Assembly: GCF_000378105.1 (NCBI RefSeq)
Contig: NZ_KB899248.1
Location: 124,001-188,000, forward strand
Reading direction: 5' to 3'
Length of the DNA: 64,000 nucleotides
From: Rubritalea marina DSM 17716
Lineage (GTDB): Bacteria; Verrucomicrobiota; Verrucomicrobiia; Verrucomicrobiales; Akkermansiaceae
The first letter of the stretch is position 1. The number at the start of each line of letters is the position of its first letter. Positions 5,817 to 34,717 of the stretch are shown piece by piece. The translations under genes and the position numbers were made by a program. Below the pieces are notes generated by a model. It ran no database searches and had not been told where the DNA came from. It worked only from the letters and a program-made list of their open reading frames with translations.

Positions 5817-8800
5817 TCATTCCTCGGAGATCGTGATTCTAAGATACTGTTTGGGGGTGCCGCCATCCTTGGCAGTGCTCGATGTACGCATTCCGTCAGA
5901 GTCTAGAGTCGAGTGAGTGATCGAGGTGCTGAACCAATGGATGAGGTCGGTACTGCGTTCTACGGTGTATGTCATGCCAGCTTGGGCTGCATAATAGGTG
6001 ATCGATAGGGTGTCGGCTTCGAGTCTTGCTTGAGGCATTGTTTGAGCCAGGAGGTCTGGGTGGATATTGAGTGCGTATGCCAGAAGCAGCGCCTTACCGT
6101 CATTATTTGGATCACTGCGGAGGTCGGAGTCGTAGGCTTGCTGGTGTTTCAGTAGCCATGGTGCATGGGGGTGGGTCAGGGCATCGATTGCTACTATGCT
6201 GAAGCTGCTGAAATTAGAGTGGTCGAAGCCGGTAGAGCCGGTATAGCGGTAGATGTTGAAGTCACTTGCGCTATTTCCAAAGGGTTGATTGCCCACTGTG
6301 CTGGGGGCGTTTCCTAGAAACAATGAGCTACTTAGAGCCTGGCAATAATAGAAGGCGTAGTCTCCGAGATCCACTAGGGAGCTGGGGAGTTCGATGTGTT
6401 TGATTGATGGACAGTTATAGAAGGCGGCATACTCAATGTCCTCGAGGGTCGCTGGGAAGGAAATCGATGCTAAGATTGGGCAATTCGATAGCGCAAATGA
6501 TTCGATGGCTTTCAATCCACTTGGGAAGGTGATAGAGCTCAGTAGTGGGGCATTTCTGAAGGCACTAGGGCCTATGTTTTGGGTGCCATCAGCAACGACA
6601 TAGTCTCCTGAGATCCCATGGGGGAATGTGAGGAGGGTTGCGCCATCTTTGGTGTAGAGTGCGCTATTGAGGCTGGAATATGTGGTGTTACTCGCGTCCA
6701 CGGAGATCGAAGTGAGTTTGTCACAGCGGTTCACAAAAAATTCGCCTATGCTACTGACTTGGCTACCCAGGCTGAGACTGGCGAGTTGTTGGCAATTGGC
6801 GAAGGCTGAGTCCCCTAAGCTCGTGGTGCTATCTGGAATGGTGAGACTTGTGATGGCATTACAGCTAGAAAATGCATTTACCCCGATACTCAGTAGGCCT
6901 TCATTGAGATGGATTGTATGAGCTTGTTGGCAATAGCTGAAAGCGTAGGGACCCACACTTTCAGTGCTGTCAGGCAAGGTGATTATCTCAATTGAGGCAC
7001 AGTTTCTGAATGCGGAATTACCAATCGAGTTGATCGAGTTGCCGAGAGATAATGTGAGGATCTCAGTGCAATCGTAGAATGCTTCTTCGCCGACACTGGT
7101 GACTCCATTCCCAATGGTCACTGCACTGAGAGCATCACATTGATAAAATGCTTGGTCTCCAATGCTGAGTGCTGAGTCGGGTATTGTGATGCTGGAGAGT
7201 TTTGCACATTGGTAGAACAATGCATCGGCGATGGCCACTAGCGAACTGCCGAGGTCAGCAGACACCAGTTTAGTGCATTCATAAAAAGCTTGAGAACCAA
7301 GAGATTCAAGCCCGTTTGGCAAGGCGATCGAGCCTAACTGATAGCATTGGTAAAATGCTTGATCTCCAATGACTTTGACGTCTCCATGAAAGCTCACTGT
7401 ACTCAGATTGCTGCAGCCTCGAAATGCACAGTCGCCAATCTGGTTGATGATAGCAGGAAGGGAGATGCTTGTCAGTAAATCGCAATCCCTGAACGCATTG
7501 GCTCCGAGGCTCGTGAGCCCACTAGGGAGTGTCACCGCCGTGAGTGCTTGTGCTTGATAGAATGCATTTTTTCCAATGCTTGTGACAGAAGTGGGGACAA
7601 TATAGTTACCGGCTTTGGCTCCCGGGTAACCGATGAGAGTGGAGCCTGAGAAGTCGAGTAGAATACCATCTTGGGTTTGGTAGTGTGTGTGCGCGCCTAA
7701 CAAGATAACTTCTTCGAGAGATTCGCACGGTGACACGGCTCCTAGGCCAATGGACGTGACACTGTCAGGTATCGAGATGCTTGTCAGTTCTGAACAATGA
7801 CTGAAGGCTTCTGCGGCTATGGTGGTAACGGGGAAGGTTTCGCCGCTGAGCGACAGAGATGACGGAATGATAAGGTCGCCGAGCGCATCATTGTTGCAGC
7901 TGGTGATGCTGATAGAGCTACCGTCATGGGTGAATTCGAGTCGGTGATTGGTGTTGATGATTGGCAAGGTGCTCTGGAGGTCGAGAGCGACGGTCTTGTA
8001 GTTGTCTGCCCACGCGTTGTCGAAACCCGTTGCATCATCAGCATAGTAAATGGCAAAACCGCTGGGTTTTGGATCGAGAAATTGGAAAATACTGCTGCCG
8101 GTGATCGAGCTTGGAGCGTTGCCTAGGAAATGTATAGAAACCAAGTTGGAGCACTCGCGAAAAACGCCAAATCCCAGAGTATCTAGGCTCGCGGGTAATG
8201 TGATACTGTGCAGTGCTGAGCACCCAAAGAACGAGGAGTCACTCAAGGTGAGTACCCCTTCTTCGAGAGTCACTCGAGTCAAAGACGAACAATTGGCAAA
8301 CGCACCAAGGCCGATACTCTCGACATTACCTGGGATCAGAATGCTACTCAGCTTCGTGCAGTCTTGGAAGGTGTACTGCTGAATCTGACTCAAGTCCGTG
8401 CCAAACTGTACGCTGAGTAATGAAGAGCATTGGTGGAACGCATATTCCCCTAGAGTCGAGAGTGAATCTGGTAAGATGATGGCACTCAGCTTCGAACATG
8501 ACTGAAATGCTGATGCTCCAATGCTAAGTAGCCCATCTGGTAGGATGATTCCATCGAGTGAAGTGCACGCTGCGAATACCTCGTTATCCATGGTCTCCAG
8601 CCCAGTACCTAGGTGGATTGATTCCAGCGATGTGCATGATATGAAGGCTCCTTGGTCAATCGATAGAACTGAATTAGGGAGTGTGATGGATTCTAGATCA
8701 GTGCATTGCCGAAAGGCGTATGCACCGATGCTTTCTAATTGGTTGCCAAAGCTAACGTTTTTGAGTGAAGGACAATATTGGAAGGTGCCGTAGTTGATCT

Positions 8801-9764
8801 GTTTGACACCGTTCCCGATCGTGACGGTTTCCAATTTGGAGCAGCCTTTCAGAGCTTCATCACCGATGCTGGTGACACTGTCGGGAATGGAAATGCTTGT
8901 GAGCTGGCTGCATTGAGAAATGGCATCCTCCACAATGGTAGTGACTGAGTTGGGTACGGTGTAGGTGCCGGGTTTTCCGGGGGGGAATTGTAATAGAGAG
9001 GAGGCGTCAGCATTCAGGAGGACGCCATCAATCACTTGGAAGTTGCTGTTACCAGCAGCGATACTAATGAAAGTTGCTGATGAGCAGCCAGAAAGGAGGC
9101 GATCTCCTATGCTGTTCACCTTTGTAGGAAGGTGTAGTGAGAGCAGTGCCGTGCAGGAACCGAAGGCCAAGTCTCCAATGCTAGTAAGAGAATCGGGTAA
9201 GGTAATAGATTCTAGTGAGGAACATTGATAGAAAACGTAATGATTGATGCTCAGTAGACCTTCGGGAATCGTGATAGAGCGCAAGTCGAAGCACTCGCCG
9301 AGTAGCCCCTGCTCGAGTGTTTTGAGCTCTGGCGGGAGCATTATAGTTTCTAGGGAGGAGCACCGGTAAAATGCGTAACGATCAATGCTTTCAAGGCTAT
9401 CAGGGAGGGTGAACGCTGTTATTCCTTCGCAGTTGTTGAAGGCGAATTCCCCAATGTGGATGAGGGTGTCAGGCAGAGTGACGCTCGAGAGTGAGGCGCA
9501 ATGACGGAAGGCTTCATTGCCGATGGCTGTTACGGGGTGCCCACTGGCTTCATCAGGAAGGTGGCTAGGGAGAACGAGGTCACCAGTGGCATCTTCATTG
9601 CAGTCTGTGATGGTGATCTCCCCTGAATCGATTTCGTAGCTTAAGCTGATATTGGTGTCGGGGATCACGAAAGATTCAGCCAATAGAGATAGGGAGCTGA
9701 TCAGGAATGAAACAAGCATCAAGGCGAGTGCCCGAACTTGTTTGGCGTGAAGGTGCTGAATCAT
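5817..9764 (-). CDS. Giant BspA-type (TpLRR/LRR_5) leucine-rich-repeat secreted protein
   Basis: 1315 residues. A signal peptide (ALALMLVSFLISSLSLLAES) is followed by about 38 repeats of ~23 residues with the BspA pattern 'F..C..L.SI.LPDSL.SIG..A'. By my count they fall in two blocks of 19. Each block starts with a related header (ITITDCNEDATGDLVLPS; SISITSCNNDALGDLIIPS) and ends with FLGNAPS and a cap, so the gene probably arose by block duplication. Three repeats carry a longer insert (DGVLLN...FPPGKPGTYTVP type). The last ~100 residues (DPNNDGKALLLAYALN, TYTVERSTDLIHW, QYLRITI) form a separate tail module also seen at 50060-50400. BspA proteins are surface or secreted binding proteins; the target here is unknown. 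Confidence 0.88.
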   Translation of the reverse strand: MIQHLHAKQVRALALMLVSFLISSLSLLAESFVIPDTNISLSYEIDSGEITITDCNEDATGDLVLPSHLPDEASGHPVTAIGNEAFRHCASLSSVTLPDTLIHIGEFAFNNCEGITAFTLPDSLESIDRYAFYRCSSLETIMLPPELKTLEQGLLGECFDLRSITIPEGLLSINHYVFYQCSSLESITLPDSLTSIGDLAFGSCTALLSLHLPTKVNSIGDRLLSGCSSATFISIAAGNSNFQVIDGVLLNADASSLLQFPPGKPGTYTVPNSVTTIVEDAISQCSQLTSISIPDSVTSIGDEALKGCSKLETVTIGNGVKQINYGTFQYCPSLKNVSFGNQLESIGAYAFRQCTDLESITLPNSVLSIDQGAFISCTSLESIHLGTGLETMDNEVFAACTSLDGIILPDGLLSIGASAFQSCSKLSAIILPDSLSTLGEYAFHQCSSLLSVQFGTDLSQIQQYTFQDCTKLSSILIPGNVESIGLGAFANCSSLTRVTLEEGVLTLSDSSFFGCSALHSITLPASLDTLGFGVFRECSNLVSIHFLGNAPSSITGSSIFQFLDPKPSGFAIYYADDATGFDNAWADNYKTVALDLQSTLPIINTNHRLEFTHDGSSISITSCNNDALGDLIIPSSLSLSGETFPVTTIAAEAFSHCSELTSISIPDSVTSIGLGAVSPCESLEEVILLGAHTHYQTQDGILLDFSGSTLIGYPGAKAGNYIVPTSVTSIGKNAFYQAQALTAVTLPSGLTSLGANAFRDCDLLTSISLPAIINQIGDCAFRGCSNLSTVSFHGDVKVIGDQAFYQCYQLGSIALPNGLESLGSQAFYECTKLVSADLGSSLVAIADALFYQCAKLSSITIPDSALSIGDQAFYQCDALSAVTIGNGVTSVGEEAFYDCTEILTLSLGNSINSIGNSAFRNCASIEIITLPDSTESVGPYAFSYCQQAHTIHLNEGLLSIGVNAFSSCNAITSLTIPDSTTSLGDSAFANCQQLASLSLGSQVSSIGEFFVNRCDKLTSISVDASNTTYSSLNSALYTKDGATLLTFPHGISGDYVVADGTQNIGPSAFRNAPLLSSITFPSGLKAIESFALSNCPILASISFPATLEDIEYAAFYNCPSIKHIELPSSLVDLGDYAFYYCQALSSSLFLGNAPSTVGNQPFGNSASDFNIYRYTGSTGFDHSNFSSFSIVAIDALTHPHAPWLLKHQQAYDSDLRSDPNNDGKALLLAYALNIHPDLLAQTMPQARLEADTLSITYYAAQAGMTYTVERSTDLIHWFSTSITHSTLDSDGMRTSSTAKDGGTPKQYLRITISEE

Positions 9765-19729: not shown

Positions 19730-20500
19730 ATGAACTCTAACGATCCAATCGAACGCCCACTAAGTGTCATCATCCCATCATACAATGAAGAGAGCACGGT
19801 TGAGCAGGTCATTCGCTCTGTGTTTGCTGTGGATTTGGTGGGTGAGGTGATCGTGGTTGATGATTGCTCTGGCGATCGCACCGCGGAGGTTGTAGAGCGC
19901 TTGTGCTCTGAGTTTCCTCAGTTACAGCTTCTTCGACACGATGTGAATCAAGGTAAGGGAGCCGCCCTGCGCACTGGCTTCCAGGCGGCACGCCTCCCGT
20001 ATGCGATCGTGCAGGATGCTGATTTGGAGTACGACCCTCGAGAATTTGAATTAGTGGTTCGGCCTTTGATTGATGGCAGTTGTGATGTTTGTTACGGTTC
20101 ACGCTACTTAAAAGACAACCCACGACGTGTGCTCACCTTCTGGCATACCATGGGGAATCGCTTCCTCACGACCCTCTCGAATATGGTGACCAACATGTAT
20201 GTGACGGACATGGAGACATGCTACAAAGCATTTAGACGTGAAGTGATTCAAGGACTGACGATTGAAGAGAACCGTTTTGGTTTTGAGCCTGAGGTGACAG
20301 CAAAGATAGCAAGGCACGATTTTCGGGTGATGGAGGTAGCCATATCCTACTACCCACGAAGCTTCTCGGAAGGTAAGCACATCGGGTGGAAAGACGGAGT
20401 GCGCGCGATCTACTGCATTTTGAAGTACGGATTTTTCCGTCGTAAGTCTTCTCCGTTCATGTTGTGTGAGACCGACGACAATTCAATTCATGACAAATAA
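19730..20500 (+). CDS. Family 2 glycosyltransferase, polyprenyl-phosphate-sugar synthase type (DPM1-like)
   Basis: 256 residues. The GT-A fold begins with LSVIIPSYNEESTVEQVIRS, followed by VIVVDDCSGDRTAE, NQGKGAALRTGFQAA, and QDADLEYDP containing the DxD-like metal site. FGFEPEVTAKIARHDFRVME and VAISYYPRSFSEGKHIGWKD are hallmarks of DPM1/dolichyl-phosphate glucose synthase-like enzymes. It probably transfers a sugar from a nucleotide donor to undecaprenyl phosphate. No C-terminal membrane anchor is seen. The following membrane gene overlaps its end by 11 bp. Confidence 0.88.
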   Translation: MNSNDPIERPLSVIIPSYNEESTVEQVIRSVFAVDLVGEVIVVDDCSGDRTAEVVERLCSEFPQLQLLRHDVNQGKGAALRTGFQAARLPYAIVQDADLEYDPREFELVVRPLIDGSCDVCYGSRYLKDNPRRVLTFWHTMGNRFLTTLSNMVTNMYVTDMETCYKAFRREVIQGLTIEENRFGFEPEVTAKIARHDFRVMEVAISYYPRSFSEGKHIGWKDGVRAIYCILKYGFFRRKSSPFMLCETDDNSIHDK

Positions 20501-22127
20501 GATGATGTCGGGGAATTCGACTGCATCAGGACTGGCCACGAAGCCACAGAAGTCATGGTTTGCACTCATCTTCATCGTAGGCTTTTTTTGGCCACTGTAT
20601 CGACTTTTGATGAATGATGGTTGGATTTTGGATGATGAAATCAGCCATTATTATTTTTCTCGTTCAGTGTGGGAGAACCCAGAGCAATTGTTTAATCACT
20701 GGACTCGACCAGGTCGCAATTGGATACACTTGTTGGTCGCTCCATTAGGGTTTACTGCCACGCGTGTATTCACACTCATTCTATCGGCACTCGCTACCTG
20801 GATGAGCTATCGAGTGGCTGATAGGCTGGGCCTGAAGTATGCTTTTTTAATTCCTGCATTGCTGATGTTTCAGTCATGGTTCCCTGAGCTTTGCTATCCA
20901 GTATTGACTCAGGCTCCCTTCATGCTGGTGTGGATCTTGGGCATTGCGGCTGCCCTCAAGTCGCGATATCACTGGGCAGGCTTTTGCTTTGGCTATCTCT
21001 CATTAATACGCCATGAAGGAATTTTGCTTACTGCTCTCTGGGGGCTTTGGCTTAGCTTTCAACCTGGTGGGCTGATGCACAAGCTATTCGGCACGATCAC
21101 TCATGGGAGAGGTGAAGTGACTTTGGCCAAGGCGATATCTCGCGATACATTGTATGCACTTAGTACGGTTTCAGCGATATTGATCTACAACATTGCAGCC
21201 TTCCTGATGCTTGGACATTGGCCGTTTTCGATCTATTTTGAATCCAAGCCGACCACGATGTATGGCAGTGGTACGGTCTACCATTACGTGCCATTGCTTA
21301 TTTATGGAGCTGGCTTTGCTAGTAGTCTATTGGCAGCCATTGGCCTTTGTTTCTTGAGGGGGCGGGTGCATGCTTGGAGTTTGATTCTTGTGAGCTATGG
21401 ATTTTACTTTGTGGCGCATTCTTTGATCTACTGGAAAGGAGCGTTTGCTTCAGGCGGCTATTACCACTTTATCATGCCAATGGCACCAGCTCTGGCATTG
21501 CTTGCTGCACTGGGCTTGGAGGGCCTTTGCGAGATGGTCAAAAAGTGGCGCTGGGGATCGAGGATTCAGAAACCGTTGGTTTCATGCTGTGTTGCGTGTG
21601 TCATCTTCCAAGGGTTCAATATGTTTCATCATCAGATGAATTACCAGAATTGGGCAAAAATCATGCATGAAGGAGGGAGACCGGAATTCAAGCTCATCGC
21701 GCCACCATTGGAGCAGGGGGGCCATTCTCAAACTGTGATTGAGGCCTCCGATTGGGCGACAAATCAAGAAAATGGCAGGGTCTTTGCTAAGCATGTGGCG
21801 CATAACTTCCATCAAGGGATTTTAGCTACTCAAGAGCAAATCGAGGCTGAAAATGCTGCGCTCTACATGATGCCTACGGGATCCTACTACCTCTGGGATT
21901 CTCTCTATTGTGAGTTTGAAAACCGCATTCGCTACGCTTCTTTTGATGAGAGTCAGGACTGGGTTGCAGTGCGCGCTTGGCAGCAAGAGTACCCAGTGGA
22001 TGGGGCTGCAGATCCAGCCAAGATCTACCGGGTCGTGGTGTTTCAAAAAGTTTCTGCTAGAGACACCCAAGACAAGCATTATGACGTTCTCGGCGAGGCT
22101 GACAAAGTGGATCAAATCTACGAATAG
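20490..22127 (+). CDS. Multi-pass membrane glycosyltransferase-like protein (GT-C type)
   Basis: About 545 residues with roughly ten hydrophobic helices and a C-terminal soluble part. The early luminal loop WILDDEISHYYFSRSVWENP contains an acidic pair placed like the catalytic acidic motif of GT-C enzymes (PMT/ArnT-like), which use polyprenyl-phosphate sugars. Overlap with the GT2 gene and the neighbouring GtrA support that role. The ATG at 20490 is preferred; a GTG at 20466 is possible. The exact family is not recognised, so acceptor and sugar are unknown. Confidence 0.75.
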   Translation: MTNKMMSGNSTASGLATKPQKSWFALIFIVGFFWPLYRLLMNDGWILDDEISHYYFSRSVWENPEQLFNHWTRPGRNWIHLLVAPLGFTATRVFTLILSALATWMSYRVADRLGLKYAFLIPALLMFQSWFPELCYPVLTQAPFMLVWILGIAAALKSRYHWAGFCFGYLSLIRHEGILLTALWGLWLSFQPGGLMHKLFGTITHGRGEVTLAKAISRDTLYALSTVSAILIYNIAAFLMLGHWPFSIYFESKPTTMYGSGTVYHYVPLLIYGAGFASSLLAAIGLCFLRGRVHAWSLILVSYGFYFVAHSLIYWKGAFASGGYYHFIMPMAPALALLAALGLEGLCEMVKKWRWGSRIQKPLVSCCVACVIFQGFNMFHHQMNYQNWAKIMHEGGRPEFKLIAPPLEQGGHSQTVIEASDWATNQENGRVFAKHVAHNFHQGILATQEQIEAENAALYMMPTGSYYLWDSLYCEFENRIRYASFDESQDWVAVRAWQQEYPVDGAADPAKIYRVVVFQKVSARDTQDKHYDVLGEADKVDQIYE

Positions 22128-31180: not shown

Positions 31181-31367
31181 CTTATATATTTTTTCCTGGT
31201 TGTCCTTATGTCGAAGCTCAACCGAATTGGTCGGAGTGAGTCTCGGGGAAGGGGCGGGCAACGTAGGAGCCGCTCTGCCTGATGTCAATCGAAATCTCTG
31301 CGGCTCGTGTTGAATATTCACATTTTATTGTTTTTGCTGTGTCTGAGTGACTTGGCTGTGTTAGGTG

Positions 31368-34247
31368 ATGACTTGTATGAATGAAGTGCCGTGGAGAGAG
31401 ATCGTTCCGAATGGTGGTCGTGTGTTTGTGGGTGGTGGTGCGATGGTGCCCTTTGCCTTGATGCAGAGTTTGCTCGAGCAACGTGAGTATTTTCAGGATG
31501 TGGAATTTATCCACATCCACACGCTGGGTGAGCTGCCGTGGCTTGACAAACAATACGATGGGCACTTCCGAACCAATAGTTTCTTTCTCTCACGAACGAT
31601 GAGTGAGGCGGTGAACCAAGGTAGGGCAGACTACACTCCATGTCCTACTTTTGAGGTGCCAAACTTATTTCGCCAAGGGGTACTTGCTTTGGATGTGGCG
31701 TTGATTCAGGTGAGTCCGCCTGATGCTGATGGTTATGTTTCTACTGGCCTCAGTGCCGACGTGATCTTTGCGGCTGTTCATTCTGCGACAGTTGTGGTGG
31801 CTCAAATTAATCGTAAGGTACCACTGACCTTTGGAGACACCCGTCTTGCCGTCTCGGATATTGATCACTTTATCGAGCAAGACGCGGAGCTGCCGCAGAC
31901 TGAACCGTGGGCGTACTTGCCTCATCATGAAAAGATCGGTCGCTATGCTGCGCAGCTTATTGATGATGGGTCGACGATCCAGGTGAGTATGGGGAATAGT
32001 CCTCAGGCGGTGCTGCGTGCATTGGATGGTCATGAAAATCTGGGGATTCATACTGGTTGCTTTACCGATACGATGATGGAGCTGGTGAAGAATGGTGTGG
32101 TTGACAATTCTAACAAGGCTTACCAACGTGGCATTAGTGTGGCTAGTCATTGTCTGGGCTCGCAGGAGCTTTATGATTTCATGCATAACAACCATGCGAT
32201 TGAGCTACATAAAAGCGAGTGGGCGAATGACCCTCACCGCATTGGCAAGCACAAGCAGATGGTATCGATTAATGGTGCGCGCGAAATTGATCTGACTGGC
32301 CAGGTTGTGCGCGATTCGCGTGGGCATCATTTCTACGGTGGGATTGGTGCGACTCAGGACTTCATTCGAGGTGCTGCGATGAGTGAAGGTGGGCGCCCGA
32401 TCATTGCGTTGAGTTCATTGGATTCAAGCGGCAGGAGCCGCATTGTCACGGGCTTAGCCTCTGGCAGTGGTGTCTGTAGTTCGCGTGGGGATGTGCATTA
32501 TGTGGTCACGGAATATGGGATTGCGAATTTGGTGGGGCAGACGATCCGCCAGCGCGTGCTTCGATTAGTCGAAATCGCGCATCCAGATGTGCGTGAGTCT
32601 CTCCTAGAGGGAGCAAGGATGCAGGGATGGATTCCGGAGATTTATGGATTCAATCCACGAGGGATCCATGATTCTGGTTCTGCTGAAATTGATAGCGGGC
32701 GCGTTAAGTTTTCCGGGATTACCTACACGATGCGTGCGATGCATCCGAGTGATGTGCGTACCTTGCAGCAATTTTTCTATGCTCAAGATGAGGAAACGAT
32801 TCGTCTGCGTTATGGGCATGCGATGCCGAACCTGGATGAAGGTGCGGCATACCGAATGGCGTCGGTGGATCAATCTAGTGATCTCGCGATCGGGGTATTT
32901 TACAGAGATGGGCATCGCGAGGTCTTGCGTGCGGTTGGTCGATTCTATTTGGATCAATCAGGGGAGTCCGCCGAGGTCGCTTTTCTGGTGCATGAGAAGG
33001 CGCGCCGTCTTGGTATGGCGAATCTTTTATTATCTGAGATTGCGAAAATTGCGAAAAAACGTGGGGTGAAAACCTTCTGGGCCTCGGTGCAGAAGCGCAA
33101 TGAAGCGATGATCCAGCTATTCATGAACCGTGGGGCTGAGCGTGAGCGCCAGTTTGGTGAAGATAGTGATGAGTTCTTCATGGAGGTCGACCAGTTGGTT
33201 GTGCAGGCCGAGCAATGGGAAAAAAAGCAAGAGGCGAAACGCCAGGCGAGTCGAGAAGGTGCAGGGAAGGATCACCATGTCGATGCCCCTGAAGTTCAGA
33301 GTGGCCGCAGTGTTCAAAACGCTTCAGTTGCCTTGTGGTATTCTACCGAGCCACTCCGGCATGATACTGGTGATGGTCACCCAGAGTCTGTGGAGCGCTA
33401 CCAAGCGATATTGGATTTGATCGAAAAGAAGTATGCTGATTGGCCAGCCATTGATGATCGTTTTGCTACTGTTTCTGAGATCACCATGGTGCATTCGCCA
33501 CACTACCACGATATGGTGCGTATGGATGTGGATAATTTTGCTGAACAACTACGTACTGGTGACACGGCAATCTGCGAGCACTCGTATGATGCTGCAGTGC
33601 TATCTACTGGCGGGGTGCTCAATGCCGTCGATGAAGTGATGGCAGGGGAGGTGAACAAGGTGTTCTGCGCCACACGCCCTCCAGGGCACCATGCATCTGA
33701 AGACTTGGGCATGGGGTTCTGTGTGTTTAACCATGTGGCTGTGGCTGCTCGTTATGCCCAACAACGATATGGCCTGACGCGTGTGGCAATCCTAGATTGG
33801 GATGTGCATGCTGGGAATGGCACCCAATCCATCTTTTATGAAGACCCGAGTGTCTTGTTCTTTTCAAGCCATCAACATGGTTTGTTTCATGCCTTTGGCA
33901 GCAAGGAAGAACGTGGTGCCGGGGAAGGCGAGGGTACGACCATTAATGTGCCATTACCGGAAAAGGCTGGCGATCGAGAATTACTGGCAGCCTGGGGGGA
34001 GCCACTGGCCGCTGCATTGGATGAATTTCAGCCCGATATGATCATTCTCTCTGCTGGATTTGACGCTGTGGATGGTGATCCTTTAGCTGATTTATGTGTC
34101 ACTCCTGAGGGCTTTGGCCAACTCACCAAGATCGTGGTGGCTTATGCTGAGAAGTTCTGTGACGGTCGTCTGATTTCCGTGCTCGAGGGTGGCTATGATC
34201 CGCTGCTTTTAGCCGATTGTGTCGAGGCTCATCTGGATGCGATGTGA
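31368..34247 (+). CDS. Three-domain fusion: acetyl-CoA hydrolase/CoA-transferase + GNAT acetyltransferase + histone-deacetylase-like deacylase
   Basis: About 959 residues without interruption. Numbers below count from a GTG at 31365; ATG 31368 or 31377 are the likelier starts. Residues ~1-445 are an acetyl-CoA hydrolase/4-hydroxybutyrate CoA-transferase fold (VFVGGGAMVPFALMQSLLEQ, GNSPQAVLRAL, GSGVCSSRGDVHYVVTEYG). In LGIHTGCFTD the position where CoA-transferases usually have the thioester-forming Glu (GIHTE) is Gly231. Residues ~453-610 are a GNAT domain (TMRAMHPSDVRTLQQFFYAQ; VHEKARRLGMANLLLSEI is the acetyl-CoA loop). A Lys/Glu/Gln-rich linker (~610-655) leads to a class II-like HDAC domain with all motifs intact: RPPGHHA (His775, His776), DWDVHAGNGT (Asp813, His815), GFDAVDGDPL (Asp900) and EGGY (Tyr944). 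CoA-transferase-GNAT fusions are known; the added deacylase is unusual. Likely role: acyl-CoA-sensing protein acylation/deacylation. Confidence 0.88.
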   Translation: MTCMNEVPWREIVPNGGRVFVGGGAMVPFALMQSLLEQREYFQDVEFIHIHTLGELPWLDKQYDGHFRTNSFFLSRTMSEAVNQGRADYTPCPTFEVPNLFRQGVLALDVALIQVSPPDADGYVSTGLSADVIFAAVHSATVVVAQINRKVPLTFGDTRLAVSDIDHFIEQDAELPQTEPWAYLPHHEKIGRYAAQLIDDGSTIQVSMGNSPQAVLRALDGHENLGIHTGCFTDTMMELVKNGVVDNSNKAYQRGISVASHCLGSQELYDFMHNNHAIELHKSEWANDPHRIGKHKQMVSINGAREIDLTGQVVRDSRGHHFYGGIGATQDFIRGAAMSEGGRPIIALSSLDSSGRSRIVTGLASGSGVCSSRGDVHYVVTEYGIANLVGQTIRQRVLRLVEIAHPDVRESLLEGARMQGWIPEIYGFNPRGIHDSGSAEIDSGRVKFSGITYTMRAMHPSDVRTLQQFFYAQDEETIRLRYGHAMPNLDEGAAYRMASVDQSSDLAIGVFYRDGHREVLRAVGRFYLDQSGESAEVAFLVHEKARRLGMANLLLSEIAKIAKKRGVKTFWASVQKRNEAMIQLFMNRGAERERQFGEDSDEFFMEVDQLVVQAEQWEKKQEAKRQASREGAGKDHHVDAPEVQSGRSVQNASVALWYSTEPLRHDTGDGHPESVERYQAILDLIEKKYADWPAIDDRFATVSEITMVHSPHYHDMVRMDVDNFAEQLRTGDTAICEHSYDAAVLSTGGVLNAVDEVMAGEVNKVFCATRPPGHHASEDLGMGFCVFNHVAVAARYAQQRYGLTRVAILDWDVHAGNGTQSIFYEDPSVLFFSSHQHGLFHAFGSKEERGAGEGEGTTINVPLPEKAGDRELLAAWGEPLAAALDEFQPDMIILSAGFDAVDGDPLADLCVTPEGFGQLTKIVVAYAEKFCDGRLISVLEGGYDPLLLADCVEAHLDAM

Positions 34248-34309
34248 TTTTGAGCTTTGGCGTTGCCATGCTGGTAGCTCAGTTTCATAGTCTGGGCATG
34301 GCAGTCTTC

Positions 34310-34717
34310 ATGAAGGAACTTGAATTTGACTCACGCAGCAAGGGTACCTACGAGATTACCGAGAATGTGGCTGCGGTGGTGCGAGAATCAGGAATACAGA
34401 GCGGCACGGTTAGCGTGTTTAACAAGCATACGAGCTCAAGTCTCGTGCTGATGGAGAATGCGGACCCGAGCGCGCGTCGTGACTTGGAAATGTACTTCGA
34501 CAAGTTGGTGCCAGAAGACACACCGTATTTTATTCACACCTACGAGGGGCCAGACGACATGCCATCGCATATTCGTATGGCGCTGACACGCAGCAGCGAG
34601 ACGATTCCCGTCTTTGCCAATCAAATGATGTTGGGCACCTGGCAGGGCATCTTTGTATTCGAGCACCGTAGGGCTCCGCATCGCCGCCGCATTGTGGTGA
34701 CTGTGATGGGAGAGTGA
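34310..34717 (+). CDS. YjbQ/UPF0047-family protein
   Basis: About 135 residues from ATG 34310 (MKELEFDSRSKGTYEITENV); an ATG at 34298 is also possible and the frame runs further upstream into the fusion gene. The family signature is clear: VFNKHTSSSLVLMENADPSA, HIRMALTRSSETIPV and the C-terminal GTWQGIFVFEHRRAPHRRR. UPF0047 proteins are small trimeric beta proteins with reported thiamine-phosphate synthase-like activity, physiological role unsettled. It lies 62 bp after the fusion gene and 7 bp before the next. Confidence 0.88.
   Translation: MKELEFDSRSKGTYEITENVAAVVRESGIQSGTVSVFNKHTSSSLVLMENADPSARRDLEMYFDKLVPEDTPYFIHTYEGPDDMPSHIRMALTRSSETIPVFANQMMLGTWQGIFVFEHRRAPHRRRIVVTVMGE

Follow-up and report, generated by a model that had tools for sequence, protein, structure and literature searches.

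Rubritalea marina DSM 17716 encodes, in a single uninterrupted reading frame, a CoA-transferase fold of family I whose catalytic glutamate is missing, a Pat-like GNAT domain and an HDAC-like deacylase that keeps all of its zinc-binding and catalytic residues. On balance we favor reading this protein as a single-chain switch for reversible lysine acylation that combines a sensor, a writer and an eraser; the sensing, the two activities, their shared substrate and the target are what we infer. The gene lies in the 64,000-nucleotide stretch of DNA that was analyzed (the window), and its features are as follows.

31365..34247, plus strand: CoA-transferase-like/GNAT/HDAC-like fusion gene, 960 codons, start GTG at 31365
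31404..32672, plus strand: family I CoA-transferase fold, predicted pseudoenzyme and acyl-CoA sensor, residues 14-436 (Pfam, PDB), with AcetylCoA_hydro (PF02550; residues 14-175, Pfam 1e-20) and AcetylCoA_hyd_C (PF13336; residues 265-416, Pfam 8e-54)
32055..32057, plus strand: codon 231, Gly replacing the catalytic Glu, aligned to Glu238 of 3gk7
32334..32363, plus strand: remodelled active-site loop YGGIGATQDF, residues 324-333 (SGxGGQxDF in Glu-bearing relatives)
32727..33134, plus strand: GNAT domain, residues 455-590 (Pfam 2.5e-6; a second GNAT model 5e-7 at 512-587)
33162..33344, plus strand: charged variable linker, about residues 600-660
33378..34241, plus strand: Hist_deacetyl domain, residues 672-959 (Pfam 5e-89)

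The frame is open throughout its 960 codons (ATG 31368 and ATG 31377 are alternative in-frame starts) and all of its Pfam domains lie above the gathering score, which bears out the description in an earlier note of three domains joined in one polypeptide by a charged linker. This linker is poorly conserved and measures 31-63 amino acids in relatives; mean identity among the fusions is 58% for the CoA-transferase fold, 56% for GNAT, 53% for HDAC and 19% for the linker. The gene is present as one copy in the host genome (3.0 Mb, 95.5% complete), and its nearest named relative is that of Rubritalea profundi (71% identical). In the R. profundi copy (L002:6001-8873, the same gene as L003) the frame shifts near codon 58, which is a sequencing error or else places the start inside the frame. 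A structure prediction made from two sequences was unusable (pLDDT 39.5), and PADLOC gave no match that would associate the fusion with phage defence. A YjbQ-family gene (UPF0047; 34217-34717, plus strand) lies 3' of the fusion on the same strand and is not conserved as a neighbor in relatives. Elsewhere in the window, a 1315-amino acid protein (5817-9764, minus strand) consists mostly of BspA-type leucine-rich repeats (PF13306, ten stretches), and a 553-amino acid open frame (20466-22127, plus strand) has no Pfam match at 1e-4.

The earlier note could not say how far the triple fusion is spread. Among 388 genomes sampled across Verrucomicrobiota, it was seen in one class only. It is patchy there, occurring in 17 genomes of four families, and this number indicates that it is neither a sequencing artefact nor a product of chance. 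A frameshift, or the HDAC part being a separate and non-adjacent gene in all homologues, had been named as findings that would speak against it. No frameshift was found, and a frameshift or annotation artefact is ruled out by the same fusion in 17 genomes. In most clade members that are not fused, the next gene downstream is the HDAC: in 18 further genomes a CoA-transferase-GNAT (CoAT-GNAT) gene is directly followed by a separate gene of this HDAC subfamily, the stop of one often overlapping the start of the other, and in one such pair (L009) a stop codon separates the two parts. Another four genomes carry the HDAC gene away from the CoAT-GNAT gene, and three Rubritalea-group genomes without the fusion are also without the HDAC. 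At least two changes between the fused and the split state are needed within the clade on the CoAT-GNAT tree. No full-length match to the fusion protein was found on plasmids, and a contig scan with short peptide patterns, which catch close relatives only, returned R. profundi alone.

The N-terminal domain has the fold of a 4-hydroxybutyrate CoA-transferase (family I), with both the N and the C domains of AcetylCoA_hydro present and PDB entries 9vag, 3d3u, 3eh7, 2oas and 3gk7 as its closest structures. In family I CoA-transferases, an active-site glutamate forms a covalent CoA thioester and is essential to the ping-pong mechanism (PMC3180442). The window protein lacks this mark of an active family member: Glu238 of 3gk7, a Clostridium 4-hydroxybutyrate CoA-transferase, aligns with Gly231. 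Among 84 sequences, the position is Gly in all 39 members of the HDAC-paired clade and Glu in all 45 others, the latter being 10 stand-alone enzymes and 35 two-domain CoAT-GNAT proteins. The replacement is a single change on a CoAT-GNAT tree built with the trait columns removed, and on the same branch the loop SGxGGQxDF became GGxGAxxDF. The TIGR03948 score of the window protein is 207 bits, against a cut-off of 675. Since the residue that carries the covalent intermediate is Gly, the fold should no longer be capable of ping-pong CoA transfer.

It could be argued that the domain has remained an active acyl-CoA hydrolase or CoA-transferase that works through another residue and makes or drains the acyl-CoA used by GNAT, given that its overall fold and Pfam scores are intact and that its close solved relatives are enzymes. 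We consider this improbable, because the thioester-forming Glu (PMC3180442) is Gly in 39 of 39 sequences, the SGxGGQ loop is also lost, and no conserved acidic substitute next to Gly231 was found in the 39-member clade, where the residue beside it is Cys in a Rubritalea-like subset only and Met, Leu or Ile elsewhere. The CoA-transferase part is the most conserved part of the fusion despite the loss of Glu, which argues that it has been selected for something other than CoA transfer. A domain that lost its chemistry once and yet stayed conserved is most readily understood as a pseudoenzyme that binds or regulates, and the N-terminal domain is probably retained as an acyl-CoA sensor. The earlier suggestion that it reads or makes the acyl-CoA pool thus survives in its first half, reading being the likelier, and is disfavored in its second by the missing Glu.

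A pseudoenzyme could also serve only as a structural scaffold or oligomerisation platform that senses no ligand, as the lost catalytic residue would permit. Family I CoA-transferases form oligomers. The activity of Pat is itself controlled by oligomerisation (PMC8556138), and yet we find this reading unlikely, as the conservation of the CoA-transferase domain slightly exceeds that of GNAT and of HDAC, beyond what one would expect a mere scaffold to need. For the acyl-CoA sensor that we prefer, the loss of Glu is one evolutionary event, so its tie to HDAC coupling is a single data point. At five other loci (L033, L035, L053, L080 and L081), CoAT-GNAT proteins keep the Glu although their genes adjoin a second, distant type of HDAC (about 31% identical to that of the window); the linkage with an HDAC therefore seems to have arisen more than once.

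The GNAT domain has the P-loop RRLGMA and Glu537, and Glu537 (present in 100%), Arg547 and Gly550 do not vary within the clade. The solved structures nearest to it are PDB 4nxy/4u5y (4nxy, E=2e-10), which represent the GNAT domain of Streptomyces PatA, an enzyme that acetylates acyl-CoA synthetases, followed by the Pat-type entries 9it0/9isq. GNATs of the Pat/PatA type are known for acetylating acyl-CoA synthetases. With an R/Q-x-x-G-x-G/A P-loop, a conserved Glu and similarity to Pat, the domain carries the sequence features of GNAT lysine acetyltransferases (KATs) and resembles those of the Pat type, to which we assign it as a prediction. The fusion protein has no Pfam match to ATP-grasp_5, Succ_CoA_lig or CoA_binding. 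An N-terminal domain followed by GNAT is the order of a type III (class I-beta) KAT, here with an N-terminal domain that lacks its catalytic residue and whose ligand binding is only predicted. The regulatory domains described for type III KATs are only ACT, cAMP-binding and NADP-binding ones (PMC6456759).

The HDAC domain is complete, as the earlier note had it. H775, H776, D813, H815, D900 and Y944 are all present in the alignment and supply the tandem His, the Asp/His/Asp zinc ligands and the catalytic Tyr of classical zinc-dependent deacylases. The second His of the HDAC DxHH motif, a position that does not bind zinc in HDACs, is replaced by Ala in the window protein (33807-33812, reading DVHAGNG), by Cys in R. 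profundi and by Phe in L014/L015. The HDAC parts match no NCBIfam model, and the closest structures in the PDB are HDAC6 and HdaH. Bacterial enzymes of the HDAC fold include polyamine deacetylases, according to a survey of bacterial classical deacylases (PMC11532494), and the domain might be a small-molecule amidohydrolase of this type, with the fusion serving small-molecule metabolism. We give this little credence, since the GNAT partner is Pat-like and the gatekeeper motif is PLA at 906-908 (Leu907) and PLA, PLG or PIG in the alignment, instead of the PEG, with its gatekeeper Glu, that the same survey gives for HDAC10-type polyamine deacetylases (PMC11532494). Bacterial polyamine deacetylases carry PIS, however, so the gatekeeper by itself is insufficient to decide the matter. 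As judged from its residues, the deacylase resembles HDAC6, with a gatekeeper of the lysine type.

That GNAT and HDAC form an opposing pair of writer and eraser, as first proposed, is still the best reading of the sequences. The HDAC tree mirrors the CoAT-GNAT tree, pairwise distances within the clade being correlated at r = 0.92, a value to which shared species history contributes. The four unlinked HDAC genes are still placed where the CoAT-GNAT of their own genome predicts, and that these genomes kept both parts once unlinked is an argument for their acting jointly, covalently joined or not. It is conceivable, if unlikely in our estimation, that the two act on different substrates or on the protein itself, at lysines of the linker, and owe their fusion to co-expression, localisation or assembly. 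In the window protein this linker is rich in lysine, and four genomes encode the HDAC at a distance; in addition, tested cluster 1b bacterial HDACs left Bacillus subtilis AcsA acetylated, as stated in the survey (PMC11532494), which means that the substrate of the eraser may differ from acetyl-CoA synthetase (Acs). Against this, neither the linker lysines nor the linker length are conserved, the tight co-evolution persists in unlinked genes, and two different HDAC subfamilies became neighbors of CoAT-GNAT, which favors opposing roles.

The substrate of such a writer-eraser switch is probably acetyl-CoA synthetase, as far as gene content and motifs can indicate. The host genome encodes one AMP-forming acetyl-CoA synthetase, AcsA (978 bits), with the motif PKTRSGK, whose lysine is the site that is acetylated in the Acs enzymes of other bacteria. 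Neither a sirtuin (SIR2), a second HDAC domain nor a second GNAT of the same type was found in this genome. No conserved neighbors, including a linked acs, were found around the fusion in relatives; in deeper relatives, a Glu-bearing CoAT-GNAT gene is preceded by one that encodes an NDP-forming acyl-CoA synthetase. The AcsA motif, the absence of a sirtuin and of another HDAC, and these synthetase neighbors point to acetyl-CoA metabolism and leave the target itself unproven. Within the order sample, Acs accompanies the protein in all 53 genomes that have it and is found in 299 of 387 overall; this co-occurrence is weak evidence, as Acs is widespread, also in genomes without the fusion, and the listed negatives belong to one genus. 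The idea that the fusion replaces sirtuins as a rule is unsupported, for in a sample of 80 genomes some that have the fusion and some that lack it encode sirtuins. The synthetase arrangement is seen at L097:2994-6984 and L099:5512-10794, where the two-domain gene is directly behind that of the synthetase; at L099 the gene after these two encodes a distant HDAC (32%), which gives a cluster of three genes for acetyl-CoA and acetylation.

A cycle can be proposed from these parts. The dead CoA-transferase domain would be kept as a binding module for acyl-CoA (acetyl-CoA) that tunes or assembles the enzyme, in the manner of the inactive acyl-CoA synthetase domain of Pat, and acyl-CoA bound there could raise GNAT activity or lower HDAC activity. 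The Pat-like GNAT would acetylate a lysine, most probably the catalytic one of AMP-forming acetyl-CoA synthetase, so that Acs would be acetylated and silenced when acetyl-CoA is plentiful. Once acyl-CoA falls, the HDAC-like domain would strip the mark with no need for NAD+.

Several known systems share features with this proposal. First, Pat/PatZ (YfiQ) and Streptomyces PatA (type I/II, class I-alpha) likewise join a Pat-like GNAT to a large CoA-metabolising domain without its catalytic residue, and are likened to the fusion in that they target acyl-CoA synthetases and are thought to sense acetyl-CoA; type I/II KATs contain dead acetyl-CoA-binding domains (PMC8556138). Their dead domain is an NDP-forming acyl-CoA synthetase, whereas that of the fusion is a CoA-transferase, with a deacylase built in. 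Second, Bacillus controls its acetyl-CoA synthetase AcsA through the writer AcuA, the sensor AcuB and the eraser AcuC (PMC13121692), which are also a GNAT, a sensor and a zinc-dependent HDAC. These are three separate proteins and AcuB senses adenine nucleotides, while the fusion is one chain with another sensor fold; being one fused gene with no conserved linked acs, the locus falls outside the Acu system proper, and by analogy it would work like an Acu circuit packed into one chain. Finally, each part has relatives from which the fusion departs. It shares its fold and whole-domain sequence similarity with the CoA-transferases AbfT (3gk7), RipA and TIGR03948 (4-hydroxybutyrate/butyryl-CoA:acetate) but has Gly for the catalytic Glu and a remodelled SGxGGQ loop. 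As in HDAC6 and bacterial HdaH-type deacylases, all zinc and catalytic residues and a non-Glu gatekeeper are present, here joined to an acetyltransferase and a CoA-transferase fold. The two-domain CoAT-GNAT proteins of Verrucomicrobiota have the same first two domains, but keep the catalytic Glu and do not have the HDAC subfamily of the fusion next door.

Schemes of bacterial KATs recognise five types, and in none of them is the regulatory domain a CoA-transferase or a deacylase built in (PMC8556138, PMC6456759). No description of a CoAT-GNAT-HDAC fusion was found in the open-access papers searched, nor is one mentioned in the consulted part of the survey of bacterial classical deacylases (PMC11532494), and an all-in-one fusion of sensor, writer and eraser is apparently undescribed. 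It is plausible, though we would stop short of calling it probable, that these proteins form a class of lysine acetyltransferase not described before, with a CoA-transferase pseudoenzyme that senses acyl-CoA and switches writer and eraser alike, one molecule fixing the set-point of acetylation.

If this is true, two unrelated folds of CoA metabolism, the acyl-CoA synthetase of Pat and the CoA-transferase of the fusion, would have been independently disabled and attached to GNAT. The 45 Glu-bearing and 39 Gly-bearing relatives offer a ready evolutionary series, and a protein with a fixed 1:1 ratio of writer to eraser would bring within reach of a test the long-standing question of how cells set direction when opposing activities always coexist.
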